Positions 6,177-7,782 of a DNA stretch of 64,000 nt are shown in pieces. The notes under the pieces were generated by a model. That model was not told the DNA's origin, did no database searches, and saw nothing but the letters and a program-made list of their open reading frames with translations. Every line of letters begins with the position of its first letter. The stretch's first letter is position 1. The position numbers were made by a program, and so were the translations under genes. Source of the stretch: Blastopirellula retiformator (lineage in GTDB: Bacteria; Planctomycetota; Planctomycetia; Pirellulales; Pirellulaceae); contig NZ_SJPF01000001.1 in NCBI RefSeq assembly GCF_007859755.1, forward strand, positions 186,001 to 250,000, given 5' to 3'.

Positions 6177-6914
6177 CTAGTACAACCAGTACCAGCCCCA
6201 CTCGACCGTCAGGTTGAAGCAGAGGGCCAAAAAGAGGCTCATCCCCAGGTAGTGCCCCAGGTCCCGTTTTTCACGCAGGGCCAGATCGACCGTCGCAGCC
6301 ATCACGGTTTGGGCGGCGGCGGCCGCGGCCAGGACGATGACGCAGCGGCTCGCCCAGAACTCAGAACCGGTCATCATGTCGGTCGGCGAGATGATGTCCA
6401 TCGACGCGATCGCCAACTGCGGCAGGGCGAAGGTAAACGTAACCAGCTTCCACCGCATCTTCGGAATCATCGCGGTGGTGATCATGCCGGACGACCAGAT
6501 CACGACGCTCAGCACGGCGGCCGCCGGATCAAGCAGCGGCTTCAGAAATTGGGGACTGGCCCACGAGAGCCAGATGAACTCGCGAACGAAGTAGAACGGT
6601 ATGTACAGCATCGCCAGCAGCATCAGGTAGTTGCCTGGCGACCAGGCATGCCGCAGGTCGAGACGCTTGCGGCGGGTAAACCAACGCCACGCGATCATCG
6701 CGCTGAGCACGCCGATGGCGATATTGACCGACGCGAACGTGGCGTAGGCGACGTTCGCATCGTCCATATTGCCGTCGAAGTCAAACCCGGCGTACTTCAA
6801 AAACGTCGTGGAGAAACCGAGGCCGACACAGATCAGCGACGTCGCGACGATCAGATCGGCAACCGTGATCGTCAGCGATCCGGGCGCGATGAAACTGCGT
6901 TTCGGTGGGGTCAT
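6177..6914 (-). CDS. Seven-helix integral membrane protein, unknown function
   Basis: 245 residues with about seven transmembrane stretches, among them LIVATSLICVGLGFSTTFL, IAIGVLSAMIAW, YLMLLAMLYIPFYFV, AAAVLSVVIWSSGMI, CVIVLAAAAAAQTVMAA and LGMSLFLALCFNLTVEWGWYW. The short loops are basic on the predicted inside (WRWFTRRKRLDLRHAW). No transporter or enzyme signature was recognised. It converges on rlmN, with 42 bases between the stops. A role in the cytoplasmic membrane is likely; nothing more specific can be said. Confidence 0.75.
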   Translation of the reverse strand: MTPPKRSFIAPGSLTITVADLIVATSLICVGLGFSTTFLKYAGFDFDGNMDDANVAYATFASVNIAIGVLSAMIAWRWFTRRKRLDLRHAWSPGNYLMLLAMLYIPFYFVREFIWLSWASPQFLKPLLDPAAAVLSVVIWSSGMITTAMIPKMRWKLVTFTFALPQLAIASMDIISPTDMMTGSEFWASRCVIVLAAAAAAQTVMAATVDLALREKRDLGHYLGMSLFLALCFNLTVEWGWYWLY

Positions 6915-7308
6915 CGAGTCTTAGAGCTAAGCTGAAGGGAGTTTCCGCCGCGCTTGCCCGCCTGCAGCGCCGACTGGAAAGAAAAGGGATCGCAAACTAG
7001 GACGTTTGTCCTGGACTGGTCGACCGAAAGTTGCAAGCCTCGTGCTCAAGATCTGTCGCCGCGTACCATCTAGTTCACTTACTAATGATACCAGTAACCC
7101 CGTGAAATCAAGCGCGTTTCGCTGGGCCTGCTAATTTTGCGTGATATCACGCGAAAGAAATCGATAAATTGCCGACTTTGGTATTCTTTTTGCGCTAATC
7201 CATGCTAGCGAACGCATTAATGGCTCTTTATTTTCCAAGCGATGGGTCTAAAACCCTCGCCTTCAGGCGAAACCTTTAGGTTCTTCCGTTTCCGGCTAAA
7301 ATCGGGGA
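6915..7308. other. Gene-free stretch with a probable IS200-type subterminal hairpin
   Basis: No open frame of protein character is present. It is more AT-rich than its surroundings. Just before the transposase remnant, TCGCC-TTCA-GGCGA forms a small hairpin (7257-7270), followed by AACC-TTTA-GGTT. Such short hairpins sit near the ends of IS200/IS605 elements and could mark the left end of the relic. Confidence 0.45.
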
Positions 7309-7424
7309 ATGGAAAGATACCGCACCAGTTCGCATAGTCGTTTTGACATCAAGTTCCACTTTGTCTGGGTGACCAAGTATCGCAAACCGATTCTCGTGGG
7401 GGAGCTCGGCGTTCGTGTACGAAG
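7309..7424 (+). pseudogene. IS200-like (Y1) transposase, N-terminal remnant
   Basis: Only the first 38 or so residues survive. HSRFDIKFHFVWVTKYRKPIL followed by GELGVRVR is the conserved start of IS200/IS605 Y1 transposases and REP-associated tyrosine transposases. The HUH histidine pair and the catalytic tyrosine, which lie further downstream in the family, are absent. The frame breaks exactly where the left arm of the inverted-repeat element at 7425 begins. It cannot encode a working transposase. Confidence 0.8.
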
Positions 7425-7583
7425 GAGAAAAGGTGTCAGGACTCTTTATTCCTCCCCTTCGGCGACACCGCTTGGCCCCAATCAACCGCCCGCCGCCTGA
7501 ACCTAGAAACCACCCTCCGCCCCGACGGCAGGCCGAAGAAAGCGAAGGACTCTCCAAAACAAAGAGTCCTGACACCTTTTCTC
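7425..7583. mobile_element. 159-bp element with perfect 23-bp terminal inverted repeats
   Basis: The left arm (7425-7447) and right arm (7561-7583) are perfect inverted copies over 23 bases, with core GGTGTCAGGACTCTTT. The 113-bp interior holds another partial copy (AGGACTCT at 7556) that can pair with the right arm. There is no convincing coding content. It replaces the middle of two unrelated gene remnants: transposase N-terminus to the left, esterase C-terminus to the right. The layout resembles a REP/BIME pair mobilised by a REP-associated transposase, or a MITE. No target-site duplication was seen. Confidence 0.7.
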
Positions 7584-7587
7584 TCTT

Positions 7588-7782
7588 GGCGAAAACGATC
7601 TCGACAACCAACATGGCAACTGGTGGCTCTCGAATTTGCAAATGGAAAAGGCGCTCGCGTATCAGAAGTATGACTACAAATTCGTCGGCGGAACCGGCGG
7701 TCATAGCGGCGTGCATGGTGGGGTGATCCTGCCGGAGTCGCTGCGCTGGTTGTGGCGGGGGTGGGATCAGGAGAAGTCGTAG
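7588..7782 (+). pseudogene. Esterase C-terminal fragment
   Basis: Reading GGC at 7588 through TAG at 7782 gives about 64 residues: ENDLDNQHGNWWLSNLQ, MEKALAYQKYDYKFV, GGTGGHSGVHGGVILPESL and RWLWRGW. This matches the C-terminus of planctomycete enterochelin-esterase-like alpha/beta hydrolases, where the GGHS histidine is the catalytic one. The nucleophile domain is missing and no start codon is available. The fragment begins right after the right arm of the 7425-7583 element. Confidence 0.7.

Follow-up and report, generated by a model that had tools for sequence, protein, structure and literature searches.

The analyses presented here indicate that the 159-bp unit at 7425-7583 of the window (the whole 64,000-nucleotide stretch of Blastopirellula retiformator DNA that was analysed) is, as read from its sequence, a MITE-like derivative of a larger element of the same genome, which we name TIRYT-type on its anatomy, a Y1/HUH transposase gene bounded by terminal inverted repeats (TIRs). 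The assignment follows from the presence of full-length elements with the same ends and of short copies that consist of both ends with one internal deletion. Taking the explanation as a whole, we consider it very likely that the unit is a MITE of this 748-bp element, the inverted ends of which are nearly identical, that it was moved in trans and that the deletion beside it was driven by the element. A single internal deletion, apparently between short CTCC repeats, removed most of the transposase gene; an intact transposase would recognize the arms in trans and would have moved the short unit; and the element would have driven the deletion in the window, either directly in transposition or via recombination between two copies. 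The features to which the argument refers are as follows.

6177-6914, minus strand: gene of unknown function, a synteny anchor, with 82-90% identical orthologues in place in three genomes of the same genus
7227-7421, plus strand: left portion of an IS200-like element, including roughly the 38 initial tnpA codons (from 7309); 99% identical over 195 bp to a copy on contig C7
7425-7447, plus strand: left 23-bp arm (core 7432-7447)
7428-7580, plus strand: short non-autonomous element, AAAAGG...CCTTTT, delimited, to within about 6 nt at either outer edge, by alignment to its three sister copies and to the full-length element
7454-7560, plus strand: 3' transposase-gene remnant (TIRYT); the internal deletion joins at about 7452-7455, where CTCC is found on both sides
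7561-7583, minus strand: right 23-bp arm (core 7561-7576)
7587-7782, plus strand: last 64 codons and stop (7780-7782) of an esterase gene that has lost its 5' part; 89-92% identical to intact genes in the same-genus genomes G001-G003

The inverted ends of the unit are identical over 23 bp, as the preliminary description had claimed: both arms read GAGAAAAGGTGTCAGGACTCTTT, as inverted copies at 7425-7447 and 7561-7583 (a repeat finder extended them to 26 nt, 96% complementary and separated by 107 nt). Within the 64-kb window the degenerate core matched these two sites without mismatch and no others, a third site having two mismatches. With a full-length element as query, positions 12-41 aligned to 7426-7455 and positions 644-771 to 7454-7582, i.e. 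the two window pieces are both ends of the full-length element (about 30 and 129 bp, each including six bases beyond the core). The unit does lie wedged between the head of an IS200 tnpA and the tail of an esterase, as had been proposed, with the correction that about six bases per side (7422-7427 and 7581-7586) are similar neither to the IS200 copy nor to the esterase.

Nine full-length elements were found, measuring 747-749 bp between the outer core edges, each bounded by the arm core and each carrying a gene for a Y1/HUH transposase (226-231 codons), the frame of which is open in eight and frameshifted in one (C3:126); across 36 pairwise comparisons they are 95.3-98.1% identical. An open-frame Y1 transposase gene bounded by the same arm, which had been suggested as something to look for, is thereby at hand. 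The four short elements, 143-145 bp between the outer core edges (the window unit, C2:145137, C2:148088 and C2:798730), all keep both ends and have an identical internal-deletion junction, at which CTCC is read on both sides. Over their whole length they are 87-98% identical among themselves; to the full-length query they are 83-90% identical over the common 3' piece, so that their original parent may be gone. Among the eight cores of these copies only one departs from the exact sequence, by a single base, so that three copies have two exact cores and the fourth has one. Considering that the cores are exact or nearly so despite this level of overall identity, we take arm identity as a sign of constraint or use, and not of the recent origin that had been read from it. 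A 166-bp unit in another genus (G016:C9:200164-200321) has the same arms around an unrelated interior, which fits expectation if the arms are what matters. Like a MITE, the window unit is short, is without a complete gene and has its ends in common with an autonomous-looking element of the same genome.

A genome-wide count of the arm, also proposed in the preliminary description, gave 27 exact occurrences of the core GGTGTCAGGACTCTTT in the 6.2-Mb genome (14 forward and 13 reverse), and none of its reversed pattern, which served as control. With up to three mismatches there were 44 places, compared with 17 for the reversed control; six of the 17 inexact core sites were inspected, five of which are ends of elements or element fragments (C2:145137, C3:126, C4:5620, C4:911046 and C6:13044), while C2:8469 is part of a 24-bp end fragment. 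Thirteen copies in the genome are two-ended, and truncated copies supply further ends (for example C4:906167-906656, C2:268978-269275, C4:4897-5112 and C7:4293-4454). The core copies are clustered (start of C1, C2:145-148k, C2:269-275k, start of C4 and C4:906-911k), and the bases just outside the AAAA of the genome's own copies read GAAG, GCAG, ACAG, GGAG and others. In two other genomes (G081:C135:4226-4262 and G237:C1:9666026-9666064) two arm cores stand head to head with a spacer of 5 or 7 bases. Next to damaged or truncated arms in at least three genomes (the C3 locus of B. retiformator itself, L013:111-126; L052/L073; L080) stands the sequence GTGCCGAACAGTATT, which may be the terminus of a further repeat or a common target.

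Profile matches identify the product of the gene as a Y1 tyrosine transposase. The protein matched Pfam Y1_Tnp (PF01797) at 51.9 bits (cut-off 23), a profile matched in all 33 members of the alignment of relatives, and its best and sole NCBIfam match was to REP_Tyr_transpos, at 60.9 bits, below the cut-off of 80. In the alignment H62, Y122 and N126 are invariant, N59 and H60 are present in at least 90% of members, and the HuH motif is NHWH in both query and consensus. A profile search against solved structures gave matches to TnpAREP (4er8; E 0.01) and to three transposase chains (E 0.011-0.013), which are weak, yet lie within the expected superfamily. Besides Y1_Tnp, at E up to 0.1, the 33 members yielded a single weak LPD24 match, in one member, and none to the C-terminal helix-turn-helix profiles Bac_DnaA_C, HTH_23 and HTH_28. 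Spread by plasmids was considered, but none of 72,556 plasmid records matched the protein at E 1e-20. Passages of PMC6006769 place 20 of the 26 TIRYTs of PMC3733652 in TnpAY1 subclass 2.1, which is characterized by a C-terminal helix-turn-helix and an HuH motif of NHVH or NH[YF]H (PMC6006769). Considering its NHWH motif and the lack of a C-terminal helix-turn-helix match, we do not place the present transposase in that subclass.

Passages of PMC3733652 describe the TIRYT, or TIRtron, as a RAYT-like Y1 transposase gene bounded by long terminal inverted repeats, not REPs; they also state that TIRs can make moderately abundant repeat families, list R. baltica with genomes rich in tyrosine transposase genes and flanking repeats, and present the motif GGGGWSAS as common to some TIRs only (PMC3733652). 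The likeness to our elements lies in a RAYT-related Y1 gene (HUH and Tyr) with non-REP terminal inverted repeats in its own copies; in most relatives inspected the arms flank the gene, a few loci (e.g. L053, L127 and L145) being without clear arms. The motif fits GGGGTCAG of many relatives, and the arm of B. retiformator, GGTGTCAG, differs from it by one mismatch. The same passages mention neither many near-identical full copies per genome, nor miniature internal-deletion derivatives, nor tandem duplications ending inside the arm (PMC3733652). In the literature searched, most subscription journals lying outside it, no such miniature TIRYT derivatives were found by title or abstract, and a search for the literal GTGTCAGGACT gave nothing on bacterial repeats by title.

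DDE-type MITEs carry a target-site duplication, whereas here no target duplication was seen and the parent encodes a Y1/HUH-type enzyme. What the unit has in common with the MITEs of DDE insertion sequences, which passages of PMC2817692 name, is that it is an internal-deletion derivative with conserved ends and without a complete gene. With IS200/IS605 the elements share the Y1/HUH transposase superfamily and the lack of a visible target duplication, but they have terminal inverted repeats, which the known IS200/IS605 members do not according to the same passages (PMC2817692).

With regard to the neighbouring genes, the intact esterase adjoins the orthologue of the 6177-6914 gene (for which no Pfam match was found) in all three same-genus genomes, so the esterase is uninterrupted in relatives, as the preliminary description had led us to look for, and the exact arm is absent from all three. 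G002 and G003 aligned with the window to about 7198 and resumed at 7587, the left alignment of G001 ending earlier; between these points the window has 388 bp, containing the IS200-like left part (7227-7421) and the unit, compared with about 0.93-0.98 kb in G002 and G003. The unit marks the joint of a deletion, by which the remainder of the IS200 element and roughly four fifths of the esterase, counted from its start, were lost. Since the tail alone had no Pfam match at E up to 1, the name 'esterase' rests on the reading of the relatives' proteins. The orthologous N-terminal part was not found in the genome, and translocation of the 5' part was rejected, as the genome search gave only paralogues of 37-56% identity. 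The IS200 tnpA head scored 32.8 bits with NCBIfam NF033573 (below the cut-off of 55) and 22.9 with Pfam Y1_Tnp (just under the cut-off of 23); it had been called decayed, but it is truncated and is 99% identical to another genomic copy. The other IS200-like copy, C7:82453-82809 (L174), has an unusually long frame of 202 codons and DHVD at the HUH motif, where HUH enzymes read DHVH in the part of PMC6006769 that includes Table 1. The simplest order of events would be that the IS200 element entered first and that a deletion then fused its tnpA with the esterase tail, the unit marking the junction; that both arms are intact points to a deletion ending at the element.

Most copies sit in differing surroundings, and we infer from the sequences that the element has moved. 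For eight other elements of the genome (C1:3066, C2:269787, C2:272817, C2:798730, C3:126, C4:3387, C6:12312 and C6:180793, the match at C2:269787 being of 44 bp only) at least one flank was matched to an element-free copy, a paralogue or a same-genus relative, and in all eight the matched reference did not run on into the other flank within the sequence compared; for C2:145137, C2:148088, C2:274488 and C4:910313 no reference reached the junction. As the references are mostly paralogues or dispersed repeats in variable parts of the genome, and the sequence compared beyond them is short (in places about 300 bases), this is a hint rather than proof that insertion and deletion go together. Clean empty sites were found neither when the joined flanks of six own elements were compared with four genomes of the genus nor in dispersed repeats, and no target-site duplication was visible at 13 elements, the longest direct word shared by their 16-nt flanks being 4 nt. 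A dispersed repeat of about 290 bp borders several elements (L010:5376-5665, L018:3494-3783, L160 and L014:6979-7267), with 78-84% likeness between the copies compared; Rfam gave nothing at gathering scores in three own loci, this repeat included.

Some flanks are mutually related (C1:3066 left and C4:906650 right, 94% over 181 bp; C2:148088 right and C6:180793 left, 84% over 278 bp), and duplication of longer segments could therefore account for part of the spread. Such relations, and the clustering of copies in few places, would suit a unit that is a dead fragment, i.e. a decayed transposase gene carried by segmental duplication and immobile itself. We hold this to be improbable, given that none of the four short copies has lost an arm and that their cores deviate by one base at most, though they are only 87-98% alike overall, and that the matched flank ends near the arm in eight other elements. 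As for the origin of the wedge, the element may have inserted twice, into the IS200 copy and separately into the esterase, after which ordinary homologous recombination left a single copy at the deletion point and the element was passive in the deletion. This would explain both the intact arms and a deletion ending at the element, in a genome with 13 two-ended copies, but it requires both insertions to have preceded the deletion and to lie within about 1 kb, and no intermediate was encountered, the three same-genus genomes being without the exact arm; we regard it as a real possibility that falls somewhat short of probable, and one that can be compatible with the MITE explanation of the unit.

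The preliminary description had taken the unit for a paired REP element of the kind mobilized by the relic transposase beside it. Indeed its inverted repeats are paired and a Y1-class relic adjoins it, and in the REPIN/RAYT system, as set out in passages of PMC3116915 and PMC2817692, two inverted repeats likewise surround a short spacer and are thought to be mobilized in trans by a Y1 protein. Here, however, the GTAG/GTGG guide at the palindrome foot is absent, the window arm folds no better than shuffles, the copies are fewer (27 arm cores, compared with 37-427 copies for the REPs treated in passages of PMC2817692), and transposase gene and ends are both multi-copy. Without such a guide, with few copies and with folding no better than shuffles, the arms are not canonical REPs, and what stands of the earlier view is a paired, REP-like repeat linked to a Y1 transposase. 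Since the unit is made of the ends of an element belonging to a different Y1 protein, it is that protein, not the IS200 relic, which is the likelier mobilizer. A REPIN moved by IS200 was rejected, as the interior of the unit derives from another gene, and we consider it most improbable that the unit is a REP/REPIN pair which owes its spread to the adjacent relic or to a classical REP-associated transposase.

Folding of the window arm gave -0.4 kcal/mol (z +1.29 relative to shuffles) and that of the arm of a full-length element of the same genome -1.6 kcal/mol (z +0.83); two GGCCTC-type arms of relatives gave -7.6 kcal/mol (z -5.4) and -3.7 (z -2.56), and three other arm types were no better than shuffles (z -0.49 to -0.97). 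In many relatives the arm has the potential to fold back on itself; the two GGCCTC-type arms fold well and the own arms no better than shuffles, so that kinship of the arms with REPs is possible for part of the family, but the window arm does not pass as a REP. Covariation within the arm, tested after 34 of 171 ends in another register had been dropped, was clear for one of five position pairs (102 of 137 ends Watson-Crick; shuffle mean 60.5, reached by none of 2000 shuffles) and weak for a second (55; shuffle mean 42.9, 26 of 2000 shuffles), two of the remaining pairs having none (222 and 234 of 2000 shuffles) and one hardly varying. On the tree the covarying pair has at least 8 and at least 10 changes on its two sides; a sign test on well-supported branches of the tree (58 rows) was not significant (5 pairs, median p 0.25), with the same direction in 3.2 pairs on average and no difference in 1.8.

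The protein was matched at E up to 1e-40 in at least 119 of 241 family genomes (with up to 12 candidates scored per genome) and, in a separate named collection, in 13 relatives, including Rhodopirellula, Rubripirellula and Pirellulaceae records; the exact arm core occurs in 30 of the 241 genomes, most often (27 times) in that of B. retiformator. In ten genomes, picked for having several copies, the best within-genome pair was 96-99% identical over the element in eight, the others being G031 (86%) and G014 (64%). Mean within-genome identity is 36-75% for classes other than IS200, and 99.4% for IS200, in the part of PMC6006769 that comprises Table 1; although these are class means and ours are best pairs from picked genomes in which diverged members are also present, i.e. 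not the same measure, the near-identical copy groups are unlike what one would expect from that picture. As far as the passages cited above present it, the published picture is exceeded both by these 96-99% identical pairs in eight of ten picked genomes and by tandem duplications at 39 of 169 ends.

These duplications were scored in 173 ends extracted by motif from own and relatives' loci, 169 of which were kept once redundant ends and those lacking sufficient flank had been dropped. In 39 of the 169, the bases immediately outside the arm directly repeat flanking sequence together with a portion of the arm, over a match of at least 13 bases; the same holds for 78 of 9818 positions drawn at random from these loci. 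The motif-picked ends are not a random sample, and close relatives are counted separately. In 22 of the 39 ends the duplicate match extends 9-11 bases into the arm, stopping at or just past TCA^GG in most arms; in the other 17 it stops elsewhere, including a second group about 19-23 bases in. The duplicated unit is 13-20 bp long in 26 of the 39, and GG is often found at both of its ends. Replication slippage may be an alternative source of the duplicates. In relatives, ends with duplicates are seen for example at L100, L113, L061, L063, L097, L134 and L140.

With its many near-identical copies, common ends and gene-less derivatives of a non-IS200 Y1 gene, the element looks like a recently active transposon. 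A wider proposal, which we put forward as doubtful, is that the TIRYTs of planctomycetes are a true IS family with an HUH enzyme and TIRs, which would cut at TCA^GG within the arm, duplicate their ends in partial cycles and often delete neighbours in full ones. Failed or partial cycles would then duplicate the end outward in tandem, mostly as 13-20-bp units and once in 15 copies, and copies would be found at chimeric junctions (IS200 head, unit, esterase tail) because completed cycles often delete neighbouring DNA. The 748-bp element, with its 226-residue enzyme, known arms and ready-made mini-elements, is a compact natural system in which one can ask how an HUH enzyme deals with symmetrical ends, the same question being open for REPs, REPINs and TIRYTs.

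Beside the own copy C4:910313 (L015:8070-8300) a 15-bp unit, CTGATCTCACCTTTT, is present in 15.4 repeats, and its reverse complement starts AAAAGGTG, resembling the outer end of the element. A second TIRYT lineage, with ends AGAAAAGGGGACGGGGGTC and a protein 60-61% identical to that of the first, occurs at C4:918484-919187 (L099) and in the same-genus genome G001 (L106).
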